26,442 nt of DNA, from IMG/VR virus record IMGVR_UViG_3300023284_000065, positions 1-26,442 of that record. One strand, written 5' to 3'. A program made the position numbers and the translations under genes. Below, one piece after another: positions 2,350 through 26,160 of this stretch (its first letter is position 1; the number at the start of each line of letters is the position of its first letter). Below the pieces are notes generated by a model. That model was not told the DNA's origin. It saw nothing but the letters and a program-made list of their open reading frames with translations, and ran no database searches. This stretch comes from a virus.

Positions 2350-2727
2350 TTAATACGTCCATATTACATCTTGATCCTTTGACCCATCAACATCTACATG
2401 GATAAAGCTATTAGAAATCCCTATGCGCCTGAATATTCTACAGACAGTAGGAATGATTCGCATTCTATCAGGGCTGTTAGAGCAGGCAATGTCAACGGCA
2501 AACCCGCTAAGATGGGCAGATTCGGAGGCCCCTCCTACTTCACGGTTAAGTGAAGCGCATCTGCACCCACTAGTAATCTTAACGGGCCTACCTAATTCTT
2601 CCCTTAAATCTTGGAGTTTTTCTACTAGAAGGATGGAAATATCATCGAATCCACAATTACAGGAACAAGCGAATTCTTCACGGGTAAAATTAGGCGAGAG
2701 TTGTTCTGACATAGAAAGTGACCTCAT
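2350..2727 (-). CDS. M15-family peptidase, candidate endolysin (125 aa)
   Basis: This is a zinc D,D-/L,D-carboxypeptidase-like protein of the peptidase M15 family, which cuts peptidoglycan stem peptides. Visible zinc ligands are His72 and Asp79 in the AHLSGFAVDI segment and His110 in IHVDVD. ITSGCRC (51-57) matches the conserved strand before the site. Length is typical of single-domain phage or M15A-like members. There is no signal peptide, so export would need a holin. The start at 2727 is supported by GGGAGAG 6 nt upstream. It is the best lysis enzyme in the window, although no convincing holin is adjacent; the small membrane proteins at 3093 and 4410 are possible partners. Confidence 0.85.
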   Translation of the reverse strand: MRSLSMSEQLSPNFTREEFACSCNCGFDDISILLVEKLQDLREELGRPVKITSGCRCASLNREVGGASESAHLSGFAVDIACSNSPDRMRIIPTVCRIFRRIGISNSFIHVDVDGSKDQDVIWTY

Positions 2728-6074: not shown

Positions 6075-6578
6075 TTAATCAAAGTTTATTCTTGCAAATT
6101 CTCCAAAAAACTCCACAGCTTTCCTGTCATAAGCTTTGGCCGCTTCACTAGCAGAATTAAAATAACCTAGATGCATTTGTTTCCCAGAGACTTGAATTTG
6201 GGCTTGCCATTTTTTGGTGCTCTTATGCCATCCGACTCCTTTATAGCCGGAAGTATTAGTTTTAATCTTATTAGCATTTTGCATATTTTGCGAACGTGTA
6301 GCACTTCGCAGATTAGACTTTATATTATTTATCCTATTACCATCAATATGATCTGTGTCAAAGCCTTCTAGCGTATTATTTATGACTCGATGCATGGTAA
6401 TCATTGCTGGTTTTGCAAAGACCGCAGAACTTTTTCTAACGGCATAACCATGATTATTTAAATGCCAATTATATTTTCCAATTTCTTCAGCATCTTCAAC
6501 GTCAATGATTGCGAATTTATCTTGAGACAAAGGCACAAGGGCATGACCACGCTTGAATATTAAAGGTTTTGGCATCAT
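6075..6578 (-). CDS. HNH homing endonuclease with AP2 domain (167 aa)
   Basis: A free-standing endonuclease of the HNH/AP2 type common in phages. The HNH core shows His63, then TDHIDG with Asp76-His77, and Asn84 before an NLR segment. The C-terminal AP2-like DNA-binding domain (about 108-166) starts SGYKGVGWHKSTKKW and ends in the EAAKAYD helix. The start is set at 6578 (ATGATG) because GGAG lies 7 nt upstream and because a longer start at 6620 would place the promoter at 6603-6631 inside the gene. It interrupts no visible gene. It is probably mobile, cutting homologous sites that lack it. Confidence 0.85.
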   Translation of the reverse strand: MMPKPLIFKRGHALVPLSQDKFAIIDVEDAEEIGKYNWHLNNHGYAVRKSSAVFAKPAMITMHRVINNTLEGFDTDHIDGNRINNIKSNLRSATRSQNMQNANKIKTNTSGYKGVGWHKSTKKWQAQIQVSGKQMHLGYFNSASEAAKAYDRKAVEFFGEFARINFD

Positions 6579-6602
6579 TTCTTTTCTCCCATAAGTCCAT
6601 AT

Positions 6603-6631
6603 ACTATACCATTTTGGCATTGTACTGTCAA
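6603..6631 (-). promoter_or_regulatory. near-perfect sigma-70 promoter before HNH gene
   Basis: On the minus strand TTGACA (6631-6626) is followed by a 17-nt spacer and TATAGT (6608-6603); the spacer ends in TGG, giving an extended -10. Transcription would start near 6596, about 18 nt before the HNH start codon. It would serve the endonuclease and probably the whole run of small genes to the left. Confidence 0.8.
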
Positions 6632-9999: not shown

Positions 10000-10147
10000 T
10001 CATTTCCTGACCCTGCACAAATGATCCAATTCCAACCCTTTAGGGATTTCCCCTCTTGCACATTCATACATCCAACGGTGAGCAAGTACATTCAGTTTTC
10101 CGATTTATATAGACCTTCTCGCTGAACCTTTCCAATGGTGTTTTCAT
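10000..10147 (-). pseudogene. broken HNH endonuclease gene
   Basis: Two overlapping frames carry pieces of a common phage HNH nuclease. From ATG at 10147 the first reads MKTPLERFSEKVYINRKTEC, the usual N-terminus, then soon stops. A second frame, shifted by one nt, reads AHRWMYECARGEIPKGLELD followed by HLCRVRK and stop at 10000; this is the His-containing core with the LDHLCR motif. The CWxW-type middle and the CVNPxHLEPV-type C-terminus are missing. A deletion plus frame change explains this better than a sequencing error. It directly follows the XRE gene stop. Confidence 0.7.
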
Positions 10148-10378
10148 CTACTGCTTCTTACCTTCCATCGTTTTCTTGGTGTCAAACCCTTTACATTTGT
10201 TATGAATAGAACACCAAGTTGTATAAGCAGGAAAAGATTTCCCCGTTTCGATGTCGCTCATAGAGCCTTGGGATACACCAATGATCCTTGCAAGCTCAAA
10301 GGATTTTAGCCCTTTGCCTTTGCGCCATTTCCTTATTTCATTGCCGACAAACTCTTTAGTGCTTATTTTTGGTTTCAT
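10148..10378 (-). CDS. XRE/Cro-type helix-turn-helix regulator (76 aa)
   Basis: A short DNA-binding protein of the XRE family. The HTH covers about residues 26-46 (SFELARIIGVSQGSMSDIET), with the conserved ELA...GVSQ and a following GKSFP turn. The ATG at 10378 follows AGAGG; a TTG at 10396 is less likely. It lies among early genes and probably binds operators near the phage promoters. There is no divergent partner repressor in the window, so it may be a Cro-like or auxiliary regulator. Confidence 0.8.
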   Translation of the reverse strand: MKPKISTKEFVGNEIRKWRKGKGLKSFELARIIGVSQGSMSDIETGKSFPAYTTWCSIHNKCKGFDTKKTMEGKKQ

Positions 10379-10414
10379 GGGGCCTCTTTTATTCAAACGG
10401 TTAAAGGGTAAAGA

Positions 10415-12392: not shown

Positions 12393-12719
12393 TTATTTTA
12401 TCTTCAAAAGAACTTCGGTCAACATTTTATGTGTTTCCTTGCTTTCTTGTTTGGCCTCTTTTCGCATTTCCTTTATATCGGTCTTTACCTCTTTGACCAC
12501 TTCCCTTAAAATCTGTATCTCTTGCTTGATATCTTGACGCATTGTCGCCACTTCATCTTTACTCGCCGCTTTAGGGTGCATCCTTTTTTCTGCCCCGTCA
12601 ATAGCCCATGCCCCGGCTGAAAATATAAGCACTATGCAGGTAAAAAGGGTAGACACAAAGCTTTTCCAGTTCACGAATCTTTCCCCGAAGTTATTGTTTT
12701 CCTTTTTGGTAGCTGTCAT
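12393..12719 (-). CDS. membrane-anchored coiled-coil protein (108 aa)
   Basis: ATG at 12719 (MTATKKENN) lies in an ATGA overlap with the tail fibre stop and has GGAG 9 nt upstream; 12734 is a poorer alternative. One membrane helix at about 21-40 is followed by a long charged coiled coil (52-107). This form is often found beside phage fibre or lysis genes and is sometimes called holin-like or hemolysin-XhlA-like, but the domain order differs from XhlA. It is the last gene of the structural unit, and the only membrane protein in it besides the opposite-strand gene. Confidence 0.65.
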   Translation of the reverse strand: MTATKKENNNFGERFVNWKSFVSTLFTCIVLIFSAGAWAIDGAEKRMHPKAASKDEVATMRQDIKQEIQILREVVKEVKTDIKEMRKEAKQESKETHKMLTEVLLKIK

Positions 12720-14278
12720 GGCGTGTTTCTCCATGTTGGCTTAACAACCATTACCGAATTATGAGGGGTTTTTCTTCCCTGCATATGTTCATTCCCAAAT
12801 CTAATATAGTCATTATGGAATAACTCTTCAAGGGCTAGTTCTCCGTCTTCTTTCATCTGTTCCGCTATCTCTACTATTCGATCATTGGGATCAATCAAAA
12901 CGATAGATTTATCTTGCATGTCATTCCCTAGAAAAGAATGCGGGATGATTGCCATATCAGAGTTTTTAAAATCGCTGGTGATTTCAATGGTTTTAATAAT
13001 TCTTCTGTCGGGGTCTTCAAAAGCTTTTGATTCATCAATTATGCAATGCTTCCTGTATTCTTTACCAGTTTTAAGGTCAATCCATTCAGAGTGAATACAG
13101 GTAGGGCCATTATTTGCCCATGGAGGGTCAGGGGCATGATAACCAGCTAATATTTTATCTTGACTATCTAGTAGTAAAAATATAAAAGAATGTACCTCCC
13201 CATCCCCAATATCATAAGGCGGACAAGCTTGGACAAATCTTGATCTAACTGTAAGTGCTCCTGTGGAACCAGGTACAGTACCAAGAGTAAATCTCTGAAG
13301 TAAAGTAGTGCCTATGTTTAAGCTATCTGTTGCATAAGTAGATGCCGAGGCAGTATTAACATGATTAACAGGTGATACTGATATTCTGGCAGCAGCCGCA
13401 CTAGACGTTTTAATAGTAGGCCAGAACCCGTAATCTCCACCGGCCCCAGTTATTAATACCAGGCTCGTAGAACTTGTGCTTACATCCCCGGTAGTCGTTT
13501 TTAAACTCTCTTGGTCGATACTACCGGCAAGTGGAAGGGTGTTTATTTTTGTAGTGACCGCAGATGAAGTCGGAACTTTTGTTGCACTACTTGAAAGCGT
13601 GGTTTCAAATGTTGTAATCACCGCACCACTCACACCCTGAAATGAGGTATCCGCTTTAATAATGGTGCCATCTATAGTGGATGGAGTGGTAGTGCCTATA
13701 GGCCCAGGACTAAGTAAATCAGTGGTCGGTGTTATGCCTAAAGTAAAAGCATCATTAGTTGTACTAAAATATAAAGATACCACCTGATTATTTACAATCG
13801 TTCCAGCAGCGCTTGTTCCGTCAATGGTCTTAGCCCCAACACCATCAATATCCATTGTCATGGTGCCGGTATTACTGCCTACAGCCGTAAAGACAAACTG
13901 CTGTAAATCCACATAGGCTATAATTGTGGTAGCGGCATCAGCCGTTACAGTGGTCGTGCCTTGGACATTGCTTAGCTTTGTGGTGCCTATCTGCGTATCT
14001 GTCCCATTATCAAGCTCTTGGAACTGTTGAACGTCTGACGAATTGTCTACTCTGACTGAATATTTATCAATGCCGATCCATATTTTATTAGTTGGCTTGC
14101 CTAATGTATCCAGGGTTTGTGGGTTGGCTAGGGCGATAGATAATGCACGATTCGAGAAGATATCAGTAGGATTGGCTACAGGCTCAAGATTTTGTATCCC
14201 TATGTATATCTTCCCGCCGACTAACGGTTTCCCGTTTGTCCCGATAAACTGGGTATTTTCGCTGATAAATGCGCCCAT
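12716..14278 (-). CDS. tail fibre/tailspike B with P22-like head-binding domain (520 aa)
   Basis: Residues 1-92 form a P22-tailspike-like head-binding domain: GGKIYIGIQNLEPV, then NPQTLDTLGKPTNKIWIG and VDNSSDVQQFQEL. It should trimerise and attach to the tail. The middle is a Thr/Ser/Ala-rich shaft. The last 160 residues are different, globular and charged, with Cys and Trp (PPYDIGDGEVHSF, PPWANNGPTCIHSEW), and are probably the receptor-binding tip; I do not recognise an enzyme motif. The N-terminus is clearly paralogous to fibre A at 19259-20773. Its position after the ejection genes matches P22 gene 9. Confidence 0.8.
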   Translation of the reverse strand: MGAFISENTQFIGTNGKPLVGGKIYIGIQNLEPVANPTDIFSNRALSIALANPQTLDTLGKPTNKIWIGIDKYSVRVDNSSDVQQFQELDNGTDTQIGTTKLSNVQGTTTVTADAATTIIAYVDLQQFVFTAVGSNTGTMTMDIDGVGAKTIDGTSAAGTIVNNQVVSLYFSTTNDAFTLGITPTTDLLSPGPIGTTTPSTIDGTIIKADTSFQGVSGAVITTFETTLSSSATKVPTSSAVTTKINTLPLAGSIDQESLKTTTGDVSTSSTSLVLITGAGGDYGFWPTIKTSSAAAARISVSPVNHVNTASASTYATDSLNIGTTLLQRFTLGTVPGSTGALTVRSRFVQACPPYDIGDGEVHSFIFLLLDSQDKILAGYHAPDPPWANNGPTCIHSEWIDLKTGKEYRKHCIIDESKAFEDPDRRIIKTIEITSDFKNSDMAIIPHSFLGNDMQDKSIVLIDPNDRIVEIAEQMKEDGELALEELFHNDYIRFGNEHMQGRKTPHNSVMVVKPTWRNTP

Positions 14279-14308
14279 AAATAAGCCTTTTTAGGTTATC
14301 CTAATTTA

Positions 14309-14317
14309 TGCTATAGT
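14309..14317 (+). promoter_or_regulatory. extended -10 promoter for plus-strand gene
   Basis: TGC-TATAGT gives an extended -10 on the plus strand; the -35 (near 14289-14294) is poor. Transcription would start near 14324, only about 17 nt before the ATG at 14341, with AGGAGGAGG filling that short leader. Similar TATAGT boxes occur in the other promoters of this window. Confidence 0.5.
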
Positions 14318-14340
14318 ATTGGGATAGGAGGAGGCCCCCT

Positions 14341-14502
14341 ATGTCGGTATTTAAATTTATTATGAAAAGCATTGCTCTATTAACTTCTTGTGTTGTCATT
14401 GTCAAAACAGTGGAAATATTTTTCGGCGTATTACCCGCTTATGGCACCGCCTTGTTTTTAGCTATGTATGTTGTTCCTCAGCTGGTTGAAAACCATTTTT
14501 AA
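14341..14502 (+). CDS. plus-strand small membrane protein, moron/exclusion candidate (53 aa)
   Basis: The only gene on the plus strand. ATG has AGGAGGAGG at 6-nt spacing. The product begins MSVFKFIMKSIALLTSCVVI and has two membrane-helix-length segments (about 9-28 and 29-46). It is cut into the structural operon between the last ejection-protein gene and a tailspike-like gene. In P22 this is exactly where the immI/sieA module sits, with sieA (superinfection exclusion, inner membrane) read against the late genes. The analogy is positional; no SieA similarity is claimed. It has its own promoter-like box but no visible terminator. Confidence 0.7.
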   Translation: MSVFKFIMKSIALLTSCVVIVKTVEIFFGVLPAYGTALFLAMYVVPQLVENHF

Positions 14503-14520
14503 ATACCATCCAATAAATCA

Positions 14521-16203
14521 TTAATTTCTACGCCTTAGCTGTTCTGTGCTTACTTCAATATCAATAGTATCTCCATTATCAGTTCCCTGCGCCCCTGTAA
14601 CTACTGCTGCTATTCCTGCCAACCTGTTTTCTTTTGCGATTTCACCCGCTAATTTAGCAACAGCATTATCAGGTAATTGCGTAAGGTCTATATCTTTCTT
14701 CATTAGCAATTCTGCTAACTCAGAAGCGCTACGTTGTGCTTTAGGCGTATTCTTAAAATAAATTGATGTGATTTTTTTGGCATCTTTACCCGCTCTCACA
14801 ATTTGGTCCGCAAATTGTGCATTCCTGGCAGTTAATCTCTGAGCTAATTTTCTTGATATCGTGCCAATGGCAGGAACTAAAATAGCACCAGGAGTACCAC
14901 CTATAAGACCACCAGCACCAACGCCTAAAGCACCACCTACAATATTGGTGGCTTGTCCTTCTGAGAAACCAAATCGACCAATTAATTTAAAAAGATTTTC
15001 TGCTTTACCCCCTTTAACAACTTTCTGCATTGCTGCTTTTTCTTGTGCATTAAAGAACCGGCTTTGCCTTTTGTTATTTAGTATGCTGCGGAATTGGACT
15101 CTTATTCCATTCTCGAATCCACTAGCTTGCAATCGAGCTTTTTCAAATGCCTCCTGTAATAATTCAGAGCGTCTAGCTCTACCCCATAACTCCCTGGCAA
15201 CCTTGTATCTTTTACTAATATCAGTTGTAAGCCCTGCTGGCTTATCAAATACATTAGACCCTGCACTATCTAAGAATGAATCAATTTCATCAATCATCTT
15301 AACCCCTAGAGCCTTATCAGCGGGGTCAATAGATTTAGCTGCATTTTGAGCCACTTTCCTTAAAGTATCTAAATCTGTTAATGAAATATCTTCCCCCACC
15401 CTTTCATTTAAACGCTGCAACGCCTTATTTGCCTTAGGTGTGATATCAGGGTCTAGTCCTGCTTCTCTTGTCGATTTATTCAACCGATCAACTAAAGTTT
15501 TAAATGCATCAGCTTTAACTGATACCCCTAAATCATCTATTTCCTTAAATACTGCCCTTGAAGCATCAAACAATTGTTCTTTAGATGGGGCTGATTCTTG
15601 TACAGCCTTGGTAAATAGGTCATCGGCCTTGGCCTCTCTAAGTCCTTTTTTAAACTTAATCACTGATTTAACGCCCTGAAACCCTGCCAATTCTGCTAAT
15701 GCCGTTGGTATAGTCGCTGCCGCCGCCGCTAATGCAGGGCTTTCTGTTTTCTCAAAAACCGCATCCCCTAAAGCTTTCTGGGCTTCCTGGAATTTCTCTC
15801 CAAAAGGCTCAAATACTTCTGCTACAGCTTGTACCTGCTCTTTACCTGCTTCTGTCCTTGGTTCAAAGGTTAAAGCCTCTCGAACCTGTTCTATAGTCTT
15901 GGTGGCCTCTTCAGGCCCAGCTGTGACGGCTCTAGCCATGCCGGCGATACCGCTAACAGCTTCTGCCCCCGCTGCTGTACCTAAGTTTAAAATAGCTTCT
16001 AACGTCCCTAGAGCCCTTTCTTGCAATCCTCTGCTTTCCGCTTGTGGCTGAGTGGGTTGCTCTTGGGGCGTTACTCCTTGCGCTTCTGGTAGGGTTATGG
16101 TGCCACGCCTTACCAATTCGTTAAATCGCTCCAATTTATCCGGGGGCAATTGGTCTTGAATGCCTCTATTTGCTATTTCCTGGACTTCCTCAAGCGTTGC
16201 CAT
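14521..16203 (-). CDS. ejection/internal virion protein, gp16-position (560 aa)
   Basis: Third and last of three large proteins between gp14-like and the tailspike-like gene, the place of P22 gene 16, whose product is ejected into the cell with the DNA. It starts MATLEEVQEIANRG and has an early segment RALGTLEAILNLGTAAGAEA seen in many phage internal virion proteins, a long helical middle, and a Gly/Ala-rich hydrophobic stretch (about 420-450) that could cross a membrane. No transglycosylase motif is evident. It overlaps the upstream gene by one base (stop/start at 16203). Confidence 0.75.
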   Translation of the reverse strand: MATLEEVQEIANRGIQDQLPPDKLERFNELVRRGTITLPEAQGVTPQEQPTQPQAESRGLQERALGTLEAILNLGTAAGAEAVSGIAGMARAVTAGPEEATKTIEQVREALTFEPRTEAGKEQVQAVAEVFEPFGEKFQEAQKALGDAVFEKTESPALAAAAATIPTALAELAGFQGVKSVIKFKKGLREAKADDLFTKAVQESAPSKEQLFDASRAVFKEIDDLGVSVKADAFKTLVDRLNKSTREAGLDPDITPKANKALQRLNERVGEDISLTDLDTLRKVAQNAAKSIDPADKALGVKMIDEIDSFLDSAGSNVFDKPAGLTTDISKRYKVARELWGRARRSELLQEAFEKARLQASGFENGIRVQFRSILNNKRQSRFFNAQEKAAMQKVVKGGKAENLFKLIGRFGFSEGQATNIVGGALGVGAGGLIGGTPGAILVPAIGTISRKLAQRLTARNAQFADQIVRAGKDAKKITSIYFKNTPKAQRSASELAELLMKKDIDLTQLPDNAVAKLAGEIAKENRLAGIAAVVTGAQGTDNGDTIDIEVSTEQLRRRN

Positions 16204-17759
16204 TAAAAGCCCTCAATTAGTTGTTTATCTGTCATTCCTGATAGATTTAAAGTTTTTTCACCTGTCCCTGTTGGCCTGAATTCACCTACAAAATCTATTA
16301 CAACATCTTCAGGTTTCATGCCTTGACTTGTAGCAAGAGTATTAAAGCTTTTCTCTAAAGCAATTTGAGAAGTCCTTTGGCCTTCAAATAACTGTTTTGA
16401 CCGATCAACAAAATCTTTTCTTTGTATGTCATCTAATCTCTCACCCCTCAATATTTTATTATATTGAGCCCTAATCCTAGAAGGAACACTCCCTGAATTT
16501 TGAGCGGTTGCAAATTCACTCTCTCTTACTACAGAGCCAGGATCAAGAATTTTCATAAAATTAAAGATTAGTGCTAAATCGCCAGCAGCAGTAGGGTCTG
16601 CGCCACTTCTTTGTACTTTCTTAAAAGCATCACGGATTTTAATAAAATCACCCGACAACTTAGTGAACTCCTTTCTAACTCCACCCACATCTGATAGCTT
16701 AGGCCCTTCTCCTTTAGAGTCTGATTCAATAGCTGCAGTGATAGCTTGAACTTGTTCGCTATCAGCGCCAAATTCCTCAATAGCTATTTGTCGATCACCA
16801 ATCAGCTTGCCAACGCTGGACTTAAATTCTTGAGGTGCTTTTTGTAAAGAATTAAAATCTTCTTGAGTTATATTACCCGCTTTCAAATCAGCTCTTGCTT
16901 TTCCTATAGTAGTAAAAGGAACAGGGGCTTTTCTTGCCGCTGCTCGTTCTTCTGTTCTTACAGTTCTAGCTTCTTCTGGGGCTCGGGTTCTAGTTAGAAA
17001 TTGATCTATTAAATCATTTCTATTACCCACTAATTCAGGATCGGTCGGAGCTTGCAGAATAGCATCGACTACCCTTGTGTCCTTGCCACGCCCTAAAAGA
17101 TTTTGCCTTATTCGATTCAACTTTTCATTCTGGATAGCAGGGACATCATTTCTTATACCTTCCAGTAAATTACGGGTTCCTTGCTGTATTTGTTGTTGTT
17201 CTGTTTGTTGTAGGGTTGTCGCATTTCTTAGAACTACATCTGTAGCCGTTCCAAGTATTTGCATTTTCTGAAGAGACAATCCCCGCTGTAATGGCGTTTC
17301 ATTCGCAATATCAACCCATTTCTTTATTCTTGCAGACTTTTCCTGGTCGCTGACATTCTCACGCTGTATGTTTTTAATATGATCCCCAATAGCCTTTATT
17401 GATTGCTGATTGTCTTCAATCCCAGAAATAAAAACCGCTGCTTTTGCTCCTGTTTCAACTATCCTTTGGGTATTTTTAATTTCTTGGTCATTTCTTCTAT
17501 CAGCAAGACCTTGTATATTCTTACCAAAAACAGGGTCGATTAAGAAAATCTGGCTTAATGCTTCTTCTGCCCCCCCATCGTCAGCCAAAACTTGTTTTGC
17601 AAGTTCGCCTTTTTGTTGCCGTTCTAACCCCTGTTTTTCTTCCTCTTGTTCTTTTTCACGTCTTGCTAAACCAATAGATATTCCTCTTGATAGAGCCTCA
17701 AAGCCTTGTGAAAAATCAGGCACTAAAGACCGTCCGCTAATTCCGCTTGTATGTGGCAT
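16203..17759 (-). CDS. ejection/internal virion protein, gp20-position (518 aa)
   Basis: A mostly helical, Gln/Glu/Arg-rich protein. A block near residues 390-460 (AAGDLALIFNFMKILDPGSV, then RESEFATAQNSG and a VPSRIRAQYNKIL run) is widely conserved in phage DNA-ejection proteins of the podovirus type. The N-terminus (SLVPDFSQGFEALSRGISIG) also fits. It lies between gp7-like and gp16-position genes with one-base overlaps, so all three are made together and probably form the ejected channel. Confidence 0.8.
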   Translation of the reverse strand: MPHTSGISGRSLVPDFSQGFEALSRGISIGLARREKEQEEEKQGLERQQKGELAKQVLADDGGAEEALSQIFLIDPVFGKNIQGLADRRNDQEIKNTQRIVETGAKAAVFISGIEDNQQSIKAIGDHIKNIQRENVSDQEKSARIKKWVDIANETPLQRGLSLQKMQILGTATDVVLRNATTLQQTEQQQIQQGTRNLLEGIRNDVPAIQNEKLNRIRQNLLGRGKDTRVVDAILQAPTDPELVGNRNDLIDQFLTRTRAPEEARTVRTEERAAARKAPVPFTTIGKARADLKAGNITQEDFNSLQKAPQEFKSSVGKLIGDRQIAIEEFGADSEQVQAITAAIESDSKGEGPKLSDVGGVRKEFTKLSGDFIKIRDAFKKVQRSGADPTAAGDLALIFNFMKILDPGSVVRESEFATAQNSGSVPSRIRAQYNKILRGERLDDIQRKDFVDRSKQLFEGQRTSQIALEKSFNTLATSQGMKPEDVVIDFVGEFRPTGTGEKTLNLSGMTDKQLIEGF

Positions 17760-18619
17760 TATATTTTAGCCTCTAGCTCATTAAGCAAATTCGGGATATC
17801 AATTACATCAAATCCACAAAATTCATAAACATGATGTGGATATTTTTCTCTAACTTCAGTAGAAAGAAAACCCATATTAGAACACTGTTCTATAATTGTT
17901 CCCTTGGCTTTTTCTATCCAGTCCCATTCGTGGATATTTAGATCGACAATCTTACCTATGACTTCCACATTTTCTTTTAATCTAGGATCAGAGAATTGGG
18001 CCGCTATTCCGAGTGCTGATAATAATGCCGCTGTTCTAAATTGTTCTTGCGCAACATCAGCCTGCCGATCAACAAGAATACCTTGACCTAAAGCTCTTCC
18101 AGTATCACGCTGGATATCAGATATCGCTGATGAAGTTCTTAAGCCAATGTCACCCAACCCTAAAGCGGCCTGCCTGCCACCGCCTATCAAGTCACCTAGC
18201 CCTGATTGTAAAACATTTGAGATGTCAAATCCTACAGTAGCGGGAATTTCTGCTATTTGTTGCAACCCGGCACCAGACCTTGTTAAACCACCAGCAGCTA
18301 GTTGATTCTGAATAATATCTTGTCTTTCTCCAACTAAGGAGCCAAAGGTTTGGGTACTAAATATATCAGATAATCTTTGCTCAAGACCTCCTACAGTGGT
18401 CCCTGCTTGAAATTCGGGAAGCGCACCAACGCCAGCTTGAACAAATGGCTGAACAATACCTTGCGTGATTTCAAATTGTCGGCGCTGTTCTGCTATAGCC
18501 TCTCTATTGGCTTCGGCTTCTATCTCTGCGGCTCTTGTTGCTGAATCATCCCCTCCCCCTCCTCCACCAAATATTCCAAAAGGGTTATATTTAATTAAGC
18601 GCTCTAATCTATCAAACAT
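17759..18619 (-). CDS. gp7-like ejection protein with S74-type C-terminal motif (286 aa)
   Basis: The N-terminus has a Gly-rich loop then a charged helix (EIEAEANREAIAEQRRQFE) followed by Ala/Gly/Gln-rich helices, typical of P22 gp7-like DNA-transfer proteins. At 211-218 is DPRLKENV, the start of the S74 intramolecular-chaperone-like region also common at the C-terminus of these proteins; the following 68 residues fit a short version. It lies after gp14-like, as in P22, and overlaps it by 8 nt. Confidence 0.8.
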   Translation of the reverse strand: MFDRLERLIKYNPFGIFGGGGGGDDSATRAAEIEAEANREAIAEQRRQFEITQGIVQPFVQAGVGALPEFQAGTTVGGLEQRLSDIFSTQTFGSLVGERQDIIQNQLAAGGLTRSGAGLQQIAEIPATVGFDISNVLQSGLGDLIGGGRQAALGLGDIGLRTSSAISDIQRDTGRALGQGILVDRQADVAQEQFRTAALLSALGIAAQFSDPRLKENVEVIGKIVDLNIHEWDWIEKAKGTIIEQCSNMGFLSTEVREKYPHHVYEFCGFDVIDIPNLLNELEAKI

Positions 18620-19258: not shown

Positions 19259-20773
19259 TTAAGCTACTTGATACATTCCCTGAAAATCAACTCTTGCACT
19301 ATTACCAAAAATAGCTACAGAAGAAGTACCAGTCGCTCCGGCCGTTCTGCCTCGGACCCTTCCAGTTGTACCATTAGATGTGAAATCAAAATTAAACGAT
19401 ACTGGAGAAGCAGCTAAACTAGAACTAATACCACATACAGCGGTTCCCGAACTAAAAGCTGTATCAACCGTAAAAGGTAAACCGCCATATAATGATGTAC
19501 TGCCGTCCCCTAAACTATTTATAGTCAAAGTACAATTAATAAAAACCAACTTCCCTATCTTCACATAATGTCCAATTTGATTTGTGTAGGTGGTAGTAGT
19601 TGCTCCATCTAACACCGGCGTCCATGTTCCTTCTTCATAATCATCAAGATCATTAGCCCCAGATGATGCCACTTGGGTTGACGGGAATGTAACGTGACCT
19701 GCTGTTTTTAAAGTTGTCGCTCCAAGAATACCTACGTTGGAATCAAATGTTAAGTTACTCCCCGACTTTGGCGCTAAATCCCCAGTTGCGTCAATAACAA
19801 ACATTGGGAAACAAGTGGTATCAGTAGATTCATCAGCTACGGTTATTTGTGTTGGAACCCCACTAGAAGCCGCCGCACTTTCCCAATCCGTTCCATCAGA
19901 GGTTAATACATTTCCCGAAGTACCGGGGGCAATAGATGTAACAGCGTTCGTGCCTTCTCCTATCAATACATTATTTTCAGTATGGGTAACGGCTCCAGTC
20001 CCTCCATTAGCAACAGGTAGTGTTCCGGTAACATCGGCAGACATATCTACATTAGACAAACTATTGCCCGTGGCATTTGCGTCAAATGTTTTATTAGTGA
20101 GAACATCTGTTGTAGCCTTTCCCATAAGGGTATCTGTGGCATCTGGGAGCGTTATAGACCTTGCCGCCGTATGAGAAGTAATAAGAGTAAGCTTGGTGCC
20201 GGTTGTAGCCCCGCTTTGATCCAGTATAGTTTCCTTTGTAGAATCGACATCGTCTTGAAAGGTTAACTCACTCCCTGATACCGCTTTTAAGTTCAAATCT
20301 CCTGAAGTAGAAGAAACTGTATTCGCGTCAAGTTGTAAATTACCGGCTTTCACTATGGTGGCGGAGGTAGTATCACCTATAGCCCCCGGCTCTGACATTT
20401 TTGCCGTTATATTTGCCGGGGTAGTCGCTACATCCGTTGCAGTCCCAGTAACAGTCTGGAGGTCTGTTGCTAATTCAGCAGTAATGCCAATTCCATCGCC
20501 ATTATCAAGCTCTTGGAACTGTTGTGCATCACTTGAATTGTCAACACGCATTGAAAACTTATCAGCACTTATCCATATTTTATTAGTTGGTTTTCCTAGA
20601 GAGTCTAGGGTTTGCGGATTAGTTATAGGAACAGTTAATGCTCTATCAGAAAATAATCCTATCCCCGTTGTTACAGGGTCTTGATTCTGCACACCTATAT
20701 ATAACTTGCCACCTGTTAACGGTTTTCCGTTAGTACCTACAAATTGGGTGTTATCACTAATAAATGCAGACAT
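19259..20773 (-). CDS. tail fibre A with P22-like head-binding domain (504 aa)
   Basis: Residues 1-92 are the same head-binding domain as in fibre B (GGKLYIGVQNQDPV, NPQTLDSLGKPTNKIWIS, VDNSSDAQQFQEL). The shaft has typical fibre repeats (LTNKTFDAN, LPVANGGTGA, NVLTSDGTDWESA). The C-terminal domain starts DDYEEGTWTPVLDGA and continues with a GHYVKIGKLVFINC strand, a common phage tip domain. It occupies the place of the tail needle gene 26 of P22, and no separate needle gene is visible. It may do host recognition while fibre B does a second contact. Confidence 0.85.
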   Translation of the reverse strand: MSAFISDNTQFVGTNGKPLTGGKLYIGVQNQDPVTTGIGLFSDRALTVPITNPQTLDSLGKPTNKIWISADKFSMRVDNSSDAQQFQELDNGDGIGITAELATDLQTVTGTATDVATTPANITAKMSEPGAIGDTTSATIVKAGNLQLDANTVSSTSGDLNLKAVSGSELTFQDDVDSTKETILDQSGATTGTKLTLITSHTAARSITLPDATDTLMGKATTDVLTNKTFDANATGNSLSNVDMSADVTGTLPVANGGTGAVTHTENNVLIGEGTNAVTSIAPGTSGNVLTSDGTDWESAAASSGVPTQITVADESTDTTCFPMFVIDATGDLAPKSGSNLTFDSNVGILGATTLKTAGHVTFPSTQVASSGANDLDDYEEGTWTPVLDGATTTTYTNQIGHYVKIGKLVFINCTLTINSLGDGSTSLYGGLPFTVDTAFSSGTAVCGISSSLAASPVSFNFDFTSNGTTGRVRGRTAGATGTSSVAIFGNSARVDFQGMYQVA

Positions 20774-20775
20774 AA

Positions 20776-21081
20776 TTAACTCACAATGCTCCGGTCACTA
20801 ACTCTGCGCCAGTTTGATCCATCTGAAAAAGCAGGAATAGAACCACCTGTTTCATCACTCACAAATATAAGTCCTGGTGCTGTTACATCAGGGACAGCCG
20901 GTAAATTCGCCACTGTATAAGTATCCAAAGTTATTTGATTACCAAAGAGCTTAGAGTTTAACTTTTCAACCAAGTCATTAATAAAATTGATATAGGTAAT
21001 AGAAATAGTAACTTTCTTACTATCCCCATCTAAAAAACCTATCGCGTCTGCTTGGTCTGGCTGTGTAGTTATTTCAGCCAT
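20776..21081 (-). CDS. small tail/structural protein (101 aa)
   Basis: The C-terminal third reads GLIFVSDETGGSIPAFSDGS then NWRRVSDR, a motif common in phage structural proteins near fibres. The N-terminus is acidic, with one helix. It overlaps the gp10-like stop by one base and precedes fibre A by 2 nt, so it is probably made with the tail parts. It could be an adaptor between tail hub and fibre. Confidence 0.7.
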   Translation of the reverse strand: MAEITTQPDQADAIGFLDGDSKKVTISITYINFINDLVEKLNSKLFGNQITLDTYTVANLPAVPDVTAPGLIFVSDETGGSIPAFSDGSNWRRVSDRSIVS

Positions 21082-22917
21082 CAGGAAGCCTCAATATCAA
21101 TAAATTGTGAGCTAAAATCTATATTCTCTGAACTTTTAAATCGTATCCCCATAAACCCCTGAAACTTTCCTATTCCTCCCGCATATTTCCATATTAACCG
21201 TTTGTTGTATTCTCCGAGATTACCTAAATCTCTAAACACTTCATCGTCAAAGTTGACATTATCCCTGCTTGTTTGCAATGCAACTGAACCGCCAGAAATA
21301 TCCACAGGCACAAAACTACCGACTGTTTCACTTGTTCCAAAAGCAATGGAGCTTATTTGAAAATTTGACGTTCCACTTGTTGCCGTTATTATAAAAGAAC
21401 CATTATAATCTGTGTTGGTTACAAATCCTGAATTGGTTATCTGTTGTCCTATAGCTAAAGATACGAGTGGATTTGGAGTGAAGTTAAATTGAGCAACACC
21501 GCTTGAATTGGTAACACTTGTGATATTAAAAGAAAGATCTTCTTGAAATCCCTGAGATATGCCTAGCTCTATTTTTTTACAGCTAAACCATTTATTGTCT
21601 TCCTTTTCTAATACTGTTTCTATAAGCTTTGGCATGGGCTCACCATAATTGGTGCTAATTTTATCGAATACTCCAATGTTTGCGTTACTAGCAGAATAAT
21701 ATTTACCTTCAAACTGTGTAATATGTTCACCATCCCATACAACAGTGGTTCCATCAGAAGTCGTGGAAAGGATGAACCAATTCCCCTTATAAAATCCAAA
21801 TGAATCATTCACCACCCGGAATGTTGCCATATCATAGCCACGCCACTTAATACGCCCTGGAATACCTGTAGCTAATTGGGTGGGTGTATAAGTGGATAAT
21901 ATTAAATCTATCCTTTCATTAGAAATCTTAATGGCTATTCCTTCTGCCAGGGCATAAACGCCAAAATCTTGATCCTTTTCTTTTCCTACAAAAAGCCATG
22001 TTTGGAAATATTCAAGCTTTGCCCCTATGAAACCGTTATCAATTCTTGCTCCGGTTCTTCTTATAAATGGGTTAGGACTTGCTCCTGTATCCTTGAACGA
22101 TTCGATAGAATCAGTACCCATAATATAAAGCGTGTTCCTAAAGTTAAAAACTCCGTTGTTTTTATCGGGTAATTCTTCTGCATCGAAAAAGCTTAATGCA
22201 TTAACGGTTCCTGCTAATCCAACATCAGAGAAGAAAGCAGGATCACCGCTAAATGGGATATAAACAAACCTTCCGTTTATGTGGGTAACATCAGCGCATG
22301 AAACAAAGTTTGAATTCCCCTGTATCTCTGACAACACTAAAACAAAAACGCCTGCCTCATCTGTTCCAAAAGCAATGGAACTTATCTCAAATGTGGTAGC
22401 AGTTGAAGCCGTAACAATACCCGTCACATTATAAGCTGTGTTAGTGATAAACCCTGAATTGGTAACGGTATTTCCTACAGCCGGGGTGGTGCCTGCATGC
22501 GTGAATGAAGCAACCCCGCCTGAATCAGTGACTCCTGTTATGGTTATTTCATTGGCGGTATTTGAATTGCTTAGAGCATAAATATTCCCTGTGGATGAAT
22601 TAACAACTATCACGGCATCATTGAACCCGATAGCAACCCGTATATCATCGGTTCCCGCAATGGTTCCTATAGTGTCAAAGGCTCCTGTGCTGGTGTCTGT
22701 TATCTTTATAAGGTCGGTAGAAAACACCATATAAAGCTCATCATTCCAAACGAAATCGCCTCTGGCAACGCCACCCGATACAGTATTTAAAGATAGAATC
22801 CCAGGCATATTAATAACTACCCCCCCCACCATTATTAAAGCAGTTCTCTAACTTCCTGTTTGTTCTTGGCAGGTTCTCAGTTCCTAGAAAGCCTAATGGC
22901 ATTTCTACTCTAGGCAT
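21081..22917 (-). CDS. gp10-like packaged-DNA stabilisation protein, with a frame break at a G8 tract
   Basis: P22 gp10 homologues form part of the tail hub that plugs the portal. From ATG at 22917 the first frame reads MPRVEMPLGFLGTENLPRTN then CFNNGGGG and a stop at 22810. The long frame begins just there and continues INMPGILSLN, as family N-termini do. A +1 step (loss of one G from the G8 at 22827-22820) joins both into one protein of about 610 aa. C-terminal match: YNKRLIWKYAGGIGKFQGF, as in P22 YDKRVLWKRVG. It exceeds P22 gp10 (472 aa) mainly by two inserted copies of a domain. It overlaps the gp4-like gene by 8 nt. Confidence 0.85.
21309..21527 (-). repeat. inserted domain copy 2 in gp10-like protein
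   Basis: About residues 436-508 of the long frame. It has the sequence plan TSVTNSSGVAQF...NSGFVTNTDYNGSFIITA...FQISSIAFGTSE and is homologous to copy 1 at 22338-22550. The DNA is also alike (shared runs such as GTTCCAAAAGCAATGGA on the plus strand). The plan resembles E1-FCCH-like beta domains found in phage virion proteins. Confidence 0.75.
22338..22550 (-). repeat. inserted domain copy 1 in gp10-like protein
   Basis: About residues 95-165 of the long frame: ITGVTDSGGVASF...NSGFITNTAYNVTGIVTA...FEISSIAFGTDE. The paralogue is copy 2 at 21309-21527. Both copies end in SSIAFGT. P22 gp10 lacks such inserts. Confidence 0.75.
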
Positions 22918-24278: not shown

Positions 24279-24788
24279 TTAATAAAATGATGTCTGGGCT
24301 TCTTTTCTTGCGTCAATTGCTTGTTGCTTGTCAATAAAAGTGCCCAAATTAATCATTTTTCCATTAACCACTATCCGCGCCCGCCATCTGCCGTTATCCT
24401 TTCTTTGTGTAACACCAGCAGTCCCGCTTGTGTTTGTGGCATGTAACTTTTGATTCTTACCATTAACACTATGGGGGACGCTTCTTAAGTTGCGCCATTT
24501 GTTATTAAGGCCATCACCGTCAATATGGTCTATTTCTTCTGGTTGCTGACCTGTCATCCAAACCCATATTATTCTATGAACATAAGCATTCCAAACAGGT
24601 TTCCCTATCCAAACCCTGAGATAAAGTCTTATACTATTTTTAACCCCACTTTCATCTACACGGCCGGCCGCATCACCTGCTTTAGATTTACTGCCCTGTC
24701 CCCTTTTGTGCTTATAAGACAATAAACCAGTTTCAGGGCAATAATTAAACATCCTTCTCACTTCTTCATAAAATATGATTTTAGCCAT
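24279..24788 (-). CDS. HNH homing endonuclease with AP2-like domain (169 aa)
   Basis: Second free-standing HNH/AP2 endonuclease. GGAGG 7 nt before ATG 24788 sets the start, although the frame is open to 24908 inside the coat gene end. An NUMOD4-like or tail-linked N-terminus (FNYCPETGLLSYKHKRG) is followed by the HNH core: His71, IDHIDGDG with Asp87-His88, and Asn95-Asn96 before NLR. Residues 120-160 (SGTAGVTQRKDNGRWRARI) are AP2-like. It lies between coat and decoration genes, a typical homing site near conserved genes. Confidence 0.85.
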   Translation of the reverse strand: MAKIIFYEEVRRMFNYCPETGLLSYKHKRGQGSKSKAGDAAGRVDESGVKNSIRLYLRVWIGKPVWNAYVHRIIWVWMTGQQPEEIDHIDGDGLNNKWRNLRSVPHSVNGKNQKLHATNTSGTAGVTQRKDNGRWRARIVVNGKMINLGTFIDKQQAIDARKEAQTSFY

Positions 24789-24830
24789 TTTGGAGCCTCC
24801 GGTAAATAAACATATACTATTAATATGCCC

Positions 24831-24836
24831 ATTATA
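24831..24836 (-). promoter_or_regulatory. possible -10 box before HNH gene
   Basis: A perfect TATAAT on the minus strand in the gap between coat and HNH genes, 42 nt upstream of the start codon. The -35 region is poor (TAGCTA or TTAGCT), so it is a candidate only. It would let the endonuclease be expressed apart from the late operon. Confidence 0.3.
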
Positions 24837-24888
24837 CCGGATAACTCTAAAGATAGCTAAACTTAACCATATTAACTTATGCCAACGG

Positions 24889-26160
24889 CTAGCCCCACCC
24901 TTGTCCACTAAAGAACGGATTCAGCACTGCATAAGCGGGGCGCAAATCGAACCTTACAGATTGTACATTGGTAATACCATCAGAGAACTTGGAAACACGG
25001 ATTTGTATCCCATCTTCCGTGGTTGCCAAGGTATCAGTAGAAAACAGTTTCTTAATCGGTACGGAACCGATAGAGAAAGCCTGTTTATGCCAGAACAAAT
25101 TAGGCTGGAACAAGGTAGCGTCCGCATTCAATAGAACTGCTACCGTGTTATTCAGGATGGCTGAAACCGTGGTGTTGTAAGACCCGCCTGATTCAAAGAT
25201 CGCCGGACCAGTTAGAATCAACGTACCCGCGCCACTTGTAAAGGTAGCATCCGCCGTTACGGTCGCAGTCCAGGTAACATTAGCACCAGAACCATTAATC
25301 ACCGCTGTTCTAGTTGAAAGGTTCAAACGATTAATTCCAGTGAAACTAACAACCTGACCGGCGAAAATGGTCCCAGTAAATGTACCAAATGCATCAAAGG
25401 TTACGCTCTGGGTCATGGTGTCCTTAGCCGTAACATAAGTTACATCAGGGGCACCATCAACAGCCCCATTCACATCACTGGTGGTGCCAGTCGTGAAACT
25501 CGCCAATGAAGTAGAAGTCATAACTTCCAAGCCCGCGAAATCAGTAGTAATAAGCGCTTTTTTATGGGCAGATTCAACCAATGATCCAGAAGTACCACCA
25601 GAACCAAGGGAACGCTGAATATCAGCCAGTGCAACCTGAGTGAAAGGATTCATAGCATAGCTCCACAGGTCGTCATCTGGTATGCCATTAGCTTTCATCA
25701 CGGCGCTGGCTTCTGCAACATCAGACCATGTAGTAACAGCAGTTCCCACCGTACCAGCTAAGAGCGCTGAGTTCTGCATCATGAATTGAGCAAAATCAAG
25801 CTCCATATCGGTTACAATACGAGTTGCCGCCGGTGAAAGTAATTGGTCAATTTGGTCCATTTTGATCGCTTCATCGGCTTCATCAAAATCAACCAATACC
25901 GTGAAATAATCCTGCACTATACCGCTGGCTTTACCTGTAATGATATCGTCAGCGATTCCAGTGGCATCACCTGTAGGACTTCGTGAACTGGTGTAATCGG
26001 TAGGTCTTTTAAAATCTACCGTATCACCAGACGAAGGGTTAAATTTTCCAGCAAGCAATTGAGTGTCTACATTCTTAGATAACACCCTTGCCGATTCAAA
26101 CTTTTCCAAAAACACTCTTGCGAGTTGCCTGGTTATATTACTGTCAAAATTGTTAGGCAT
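24889..26160 (-). CDS. P22-like major capsid (coat) protein (423 aa)
   Basis: Length (423 against 430 aa in P22) and plan fit the P22 coat family, an HK97-fold shell protein. The N-terminus DSNITRQLARVFLEKFESAR and VDFKRPTDYTS are typical. The middle has a beta-rich Thr/Gly stretch (about 270-350) that could be the insertion domain. The C-terminal segment LFWHKQAFSIGSVPIKKL ... DLRPAYAVLNP is characteristic. AAGGATG upstream sets the start, 11 nt after the scaffold-like stop. Confidence 0.85.
   Translation of the reverse strand: MPNNFDSNITRQLARVFLEKFESARVLSKNVDTQLLAGKFNPSSGDTVDFKRPTDYTSSRSPTGDATGIADDIITGKASGIVQDYFTVLVDFDEADEAIKMDQIDQLLSPAATRIVTDMELDFAQFMMQNSALLAGTVGTAVTTWSDVAEASAVMKANGIPDDDLWSYAMNPFTQVALADIQRSLGSGGTSGSLVESAHKKALITTDFAGLEVMTSTSLASFTTGTTSDVNGAVDGAPDVTYVTAKDTMTQSVTFDAFGTFTGTIFAGQVVSFTGINRLNLSTRTAVINGSGANVTWTATVTADATFTSGAGTLILTGPAIFESGGSYNTTVSAILNNTVAVLLNADATLFQPNLFWHKQAFSIGSVPIKKLFSTDTLATTEDGIQIRVSKFSDGITNVQSVRFDLRPAYAVLNPFFSGQGWG

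Follow-up and report, generated by a model that had tools for sequence, protein, structure and literature searches.

A small gene for a predicted membrane protein at the moron site between the ejection and tailspike genes of an environmental P22-like phage

The region between genes 16 and 9 of P22-like phages, called the "ant moron", was characterised in sixteen phages and prophages of the enterobacterial type, several of which, Sf6 among them, were reported to lack it (PMC2629481). The morons known from this site (mnt/arc/ant, sieA, hkcB and hkcC) belong to temperate enterobacterial phages and are independently expressed. In P22 the site is occupied by sieA, which is inverted and has its own promoter. 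The SieA protein (PHROG 7745) has 164 aa, three predicted transmembrane segments and the motif FxRYPxEAxxFNK, and it acts in exclusion against the products of adjacent genes (PMC10883804). Mutants that escape it are altered towards the C-terminus of gp16 and gp20, which are encoded by the neighbouring genes, and two SieA types with only 24% identity exclude alike (PMC10883804).

We analysed the same site in a stretch of 26,442 bases from an IMG/VR virus record, a fragment of a P22-like podophage that is hereafter called the window. Between its last ejection gene and its tailspike/fibre gene (the slot) lies an inverted gene for a 53-aa protein. As in the ant moron, the content of the slot varies among related phages and is sometimes lacking. 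Independent expression, a property of the known members, may apply here as well: the gene is inverted and has an extended -10 and a strong Shine-Dalgarno sequence, and its promoter scores p 0.10 against shuffles when taken alone, with an enrichment of promoters across slots at p 2e-7. The known morons are larger, however, and are carried by temperate enterobacterial phages, whereas the slot of the window holds one 53-aa membrane protein and belongs to an environmental phage, most relatives of which are devoid of integrases.

The closest parallel is P22 SieA, with which the gene agrees in site and orientation; it too seems to have its own promoter, and its product is likewise a membrane protein encoded beside the ejection genes. 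The 53-aa protein is nevertheless only a third as long as SieA, has at most two transmembrane segments and lacks the SieA motif, and it falls outside the size and topology of the SieA family (160-200 aa, at least three transmembrane segments). Neither PHROG nor Pfam matched it to SieA types A, B or C, while P22 SieA itself matches PHROG 7745 at 9e-109, and PHROG, Pfam and PADLOC revealed no sequence similarity to SieA, Cor or known exclusion families. A protein that is SieA-like in its working, without being a member of the SieA family, is in our view the best explanation. The other inverted genes known from this position are also unrelated in sequence. HK620 HkcB (PHROG 5962), encoded directly after gene 16, resembles the 53-aa protein in its N-terminal hydrophobic segment but is 109 aa long with a long coiled-coil-like tail; gp20 of Sulfitobacter phage phiGT1 is a 71-aa protein with two transmembrane segments, and its depositors remarked on "small inverted frames at this position in closely related phages"; SUFP_017 of NYA-2014a and gp30 of EBPR podovirus 2 are Cys-rich lipoproteins of 104-109 aa.

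The inverted gene and its surroundings

The structural genes of the window all lie on the minus strand, in the order coat, head-closure Hc3, gp14-like, equivalents of ejection genes 7, 20 and 16, slot, and tailspike/fibre (Table 1). Identity of the coat protein is 57-60% with Pseudoalteromonas phage H6/1 and 39% with Sf6 and HK620, and by tblastn the gene-16-position protein has 41% identity to its counterpart in Vibrio phage 1.275.O. The tailspike/fibre product has an N-terminus of the GKIYIG..PV.. type that by eye resembles the head-binding segment of the P22 tailspike; a sequence search of the PDB matched it to no solved structure. This N-terminus is shared, at 62% identity over 111 aa, with the product of 19259-20773 (-), a gene lying between the Hc3 and gp14-like genes, which is the position of the P22 tail-needle gene 26. 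The Hc3 stabilisation protein (21081-22832, -) contains two diverged copies of an inserted segment of about 60 aa, beginning at about residues 98 and 437, that is missing from the five relatives aligned. Homing-like endonuclease genes of the HNH (and AP2) type are found at 6075-6620 and 24279-24908 (-), one of them adjoining the coat gene.

Table 1. Coordinates of features in the window and of Cys-rich lipoprotein loci in related slots
Feature	Position	Strand	Basis or remark
Small membrane-protein gene, 53 aa (moron)	14341..14502	+	ATG start; ORF, L136 homologue, codon usage
Shine-Dalgarno AGGAGGAGG	14326..14334	+	6 nt before ATG
Extended -10 TGCTATAGT	14309..14317	+	promoter element
Weak -35 TTTAGG	14290-14295	+	16-nt spacer to the -10
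Imperfect palindrome TTAGGTTATCCTAA	14291..14304	.	overlaps -35 region; adjoins fibre gene's ribosome-binding site
Tailspike/fibre gene	12716..14278	-	head-binding-type N-terminus (alignment); downstream flank of slot
Gene-16-position ejection (DNA-injection) protein	14521..16203	-	tblastn to annotated ejection/injection proteins; upstream flank of slot
Gene-20-position ejection protein	16203..17759	-	position, PHROG 13634, orthologues in relatives
Gene-7-like ejection protein	17759..18619	-	PHROG 598 "DNA ejection", E 5.5e-22
Endolysin	2350-2727		small neighbours; about 11 kb from slot
Cro/CI-like HTH protein	10148-10396		ORF
Cys-rich small lipoprotein loci	L113:6907-7199, L151:14327-14757, L141:16094-16420, L009:7074-7388, L003:11089-11418

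An earlier note, made from the letters of the window, had singled out a 53-codon plus-strand frame amid minus-strand genes, with a well-spaced Shine-Dalgarno sequence and an extended -10, at the site where P22 carries sieA and immI. These features are present as described. The frame lies inside a 242-bp gap, on the strand opposite to both flanking genes, and its 9-mer Shine-Dalgarno sequence occurs once in the window on either strand. We saw no other plausible plus-strand gene in the window, the other long plus-strand frames overlapping minus-strand genes. The palindrome at the -35 region may be an operator or a coincidence. It is the only perfect copy in the window, and a repeated operator was ruled out since near-matches were not in excess over shuffles. 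No terminator is predicted just after the stop codon at 14502, and a transcript would consequently run antisense into the ejection gene.

The frame is a real gene, new, at a known moron site. Judged on the window alone the case would be moderate, and comparison with relatives decides it. Three things raise it above a chance frame: a homologue found in a related contig (L136), its codon usage, and the repeated presence of comparable genes in the slot. The homologue, a 62-aa protein encoded in the same slot and likewise inverted, is 40% identical to the 53-aa protein (phmmer E 1.3e-4 in a search of all fetched loci translated in six frames), and the two have VEIFFG..P..G.ALF in common. The frame is thus conserved in a relative, a point on which the earlier note had made its proposal depend. 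The homologue was first recognised through the survey of slots described below, and scanning afterwards with both sequences recovered this contig alone. Differences between the two frames by codon position 1, 2 and 3 number 25, 17 and 36, which should be read as weak support since the alignment was made on protein. The codon log-odds of the frame is 0.04 per codon, against 0.26±0.10 for genes and -0.41±0.25 for antisense sequence, a value attained by 1.9% of antisense stretches, and its CAI-like index (0.728) is close to that of the window genes (0.723).

Other searches gave no relatives. The 53-aa protein had no match in PHROG or Pfam, PADLOC and Rfam returned nothing, and BLAST of the region against phage records gave no match. 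Single-sequence scans of viral contigs yielded nothing close to either the 53-aa protein or the ejection proteins, and when 30 relatives were searched directly with the 53-aa protein there was again no match. The 51-aa slot protein of L133 was rejected as a homologue (hhalign probability 3%); the 5' region of its gene reads like that of the window, CCTAATT..TGCTATA.T..AAGGAGGCCCC..ATG.

We infer from hydropathy (two hydrophobic stretches, best KD 2.1) that the product is a membrane protein with one or two passes. The AlphaFold model, built from only 2 sequences, is all-helical with one continuous helix (pLDDT 82, pTM 0.43).

Contents of the slot in related phages

Relatives were found through alignments of the coat and head-closure proteins, and those of their slots with a gap of 100-700 bp were surveyed for tiny ORFs encoding a transmembrane segment or a lipobox. 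In this comparison, which the earlier note had suggested, related phages carry different genes at this gap: such an ORF was present in 26 of 27 genomes with a gap of this size (window included), at least one being inverted in 18, and the contents were mostly unrelated in sequence and varied in orientation, sharing small size and envelope location. The lone exception, Vibrio phage 234P9, has an inverted hydrophobic ORF that extends out of the gap. In the first set 16 of 17 gaps were filled (again with the window), 12 with an inverted and 5 with a sense ORF, where dinucleotide shuffles predict 3.4 and 0.3. A second set was retrieved only once the criterion had been settled; all ten of its gaps were filled against a shuffle expectation of 3.0, and the product of the per-gap probabilities was 1e-6 (1e-5 once related pairs were collapsed). 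Elsewhere in the same operons, 10 of 50 gaps of 100-700 bp contained an ORF of this kind (Fisher 2e-11 versus the slot). The survey should be interpreted with some caution since its criterion is a hydropathy threshold and some matches are surely spurious; the claim is one of enrichment, not of each individual ORF. Four are probably spurious: in NYA a sense ORF of 52 aa, in L180 an inverted one of 142 aa, the ORF of L176, and in L113 the second of the inverted frames. The ejection/tailspike junction is closed in about half of the relatives, and the function of the slot is therefore dispensable.

The families recognised are the window/L136 protein, a lipoprotein in L179 and L180, the phiGT1 protein with its two transmembrane segments, and many single-TM peptides. 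A Cys-rich lipoprotein recurs in L113, L141 and L151, with similar-looking ones in NYA-2014a and EBPR podovirus 2. Its frames in L151 and L141 differ at 12, 10 and 36 sites by codon position, a third-position excess that is also seen (6, 3, 14) in a 34-aa transmembrane ORF following it in L113 and L151, the start of which overlaps or abuts the lipoprotein stop. A second ORF, also transmembrane, follows the lipoprotein in NYA and EBPR. Small size had been expected to make such genes easy to miss, and this is borne out by an unannotated inverted transmembrane ORF of 38 aa in the slot of Vibrio phage 1.275.O (L002, 19394-19510, -) and possibly by one of 25 aa in that of Sf6 (L117, 13546-13623, -), which is without promoter support and may be a chance product. 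In L105 the fibre gene (about 10131-10270 of the reverse complement) apparently starts at a non-standard ATC codon after AAGGAGGTGCCCC.

Upstream of the inverted slot ORFs, sigma70-like sequences score better than in shuffles (11 of 22 at p<0.1; Fisher combined 2e-7). On the inverted strand, 7 of 30 slots have the extended -10 TGnTATAnT (1.3 expected), as do none of 23 closed junctions; the broad motif TGnTAnnnT is not enriched over slots (12 versus 11.4 expected). The window gene is probably self-expressed, as the earlier note proposed; considered singly, its promoter does not differ significantly from shuffles (p about 0.10). In L113, L141, L151 and L108 the -10 ends only 6-7 nt before the ATG, a distance that suggests leaderless transcripts. 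Slot genes of seven relatives (L100, L121, L124, L128, L130, L162 and L179) are co-directional with the late operon, an arrangement that suits late expression better than early exclusion.

Possible functions of the slot proteins

Exclusion appears to us the likeliest function, since the gene has the place, the orientation, the apparent promoter and the membrane nature of SieA, and we tentatively propose that the 53-aa protein is a miniature superinfection-exclusion protein of the inner membrane directed against the ejection conduit. According to this proposal a sigma70-type promoter would drive the gene independently of the late operon, and the protein would be made soon after DNA entry (or from the prophage, if any) and insert into the host inner membrane. 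There it would disturb the conduit that related phages build from their ejection proteins, either as it is assembled or as it functions, and thereby keep their DNA out. The proposed target of slot-encoded exclusion proteins is the product of the adjacent gene-16-position gene, and linkage to the ejection genes would keep the protein with the alleles that it tolerates or targets. In a virulent phage, exclusion would take place inside the infected cell. The insertion into the membrane, the timing, the exclusion itself and the target are all inferred here. Against exclusion stand the missing similarity to known exclusion families, the short length with few membrane passes, the closed junction in about half of the relatives and the slot genes that run with the late operon.

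Many hydrophobic effector peptides are typically 25-70 aa long, and slot proteins of that size, mostly unrelated and alike only in smallness and envelope location, could also act early in infection in host takeover, in remodelling of the membrane potential or envelope, or as type-I-toxin-like peptides, and not in exclusion of kin. We consider such a role unlikely, as the only studied envelope protein from this site, P22 SieA, acts in exclusion (PMC10883804), and for a toxin-like peptide no antisense-RNA partner was identified in Rfam. That a holin, antiholin or spanin partner has lodged in the structural operon is improbable: lysis cassettes do consist of small transmembrane proteins and lipoproteins, and some slot lipoproteins match Rz-like spanins weakly (E 0.002-0.05, signal peptide only), but the window has a separate endolysin with its own small neighbours (Table 1), and slot genes are often inverted with promoters of their own, unlike late lysis genes. 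Two readings dispense with a functional protein or make it secondary. A plus-strand transcript tuning ejection-gene or tailspike expression in antisense is very unlikely; the missing terminator would suit it, but protein homology, gene-like codon usage and the third-position excess in related slot ORFs argue against it, and it is impossible where the slot gene has the sense orientation. That a hydrophobic ORF arose by chance in this AT-rich gap is scarcely credible. Shuffles give such an inverted ORF in this gap alone with probability 0.34, the promoter alone is no better than stated above, and the ORFs of about 25 aa in some relatives, Sf6 included, may be chance, but a homologue at the same place and orientation, a unique AGGAGGAGG and matching codon usage all speak for a gene.

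Lysogenic conversion, which the earlier note favoured, is not supported, and expression from a prophage is in our estimate improbable. P22 sieA works in this way, the window encodes a Cro/CI-like HTH protein and may yet come from a temperate phage, and a tyrosine integrase is present in four related records (G006, G037, EBPR podovirus 2 and NYA-2014a). However, none was found in the window (a 26 kb fragment), or in most near-complete relatives, such as G002, G005, G011, G018, G021, G029, G030, G031, G032, G036, Vibrio 1.275.O, H6/1 and phiGT1, and no resolvase-type (serine) recombinase was found in 25 relatives. Among some 85,000 bacterial and archaeal genomes the head-closure protein of the family occurs in only 2 contigs, both from metagenome-assembled genomes, and phiGT1, which bears a slot gene, has been described as lytic (PMC10386132).

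Exclusion thus remains our preferred reading for the window gene. With less assurance still, we advance as a possibility that the P22-like ejection/tailspike junction, mostly integrase-less environmental phages included, is a dedicated slot for transmembrane peptides and lipoproteins of 25-110 aa from many unrelated families, a large and unannotated reservoir of exclusion functions. Many of its genes would be leaderless or have their own promoter and would oppose the operon in direction, and its proteins would be matched to the adjacent ejection proteins and act in lytic infection.

In conclusion, the presented data extend the moron site to distant environmental P22-like phages, and the general rule suggested by the survey is of more interest than the single gene: what fills the slot, a tiny membrane protein or lipoprotein, can be predicted statistically despite mostly unrelated sequences. 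Should these proteins act in exclusion, many small candidates could be named by position alone, each paired with the ejection proteins it should act on, and how SieA recognises diverse ejection proteins would become testable with proteins of 50 residues.
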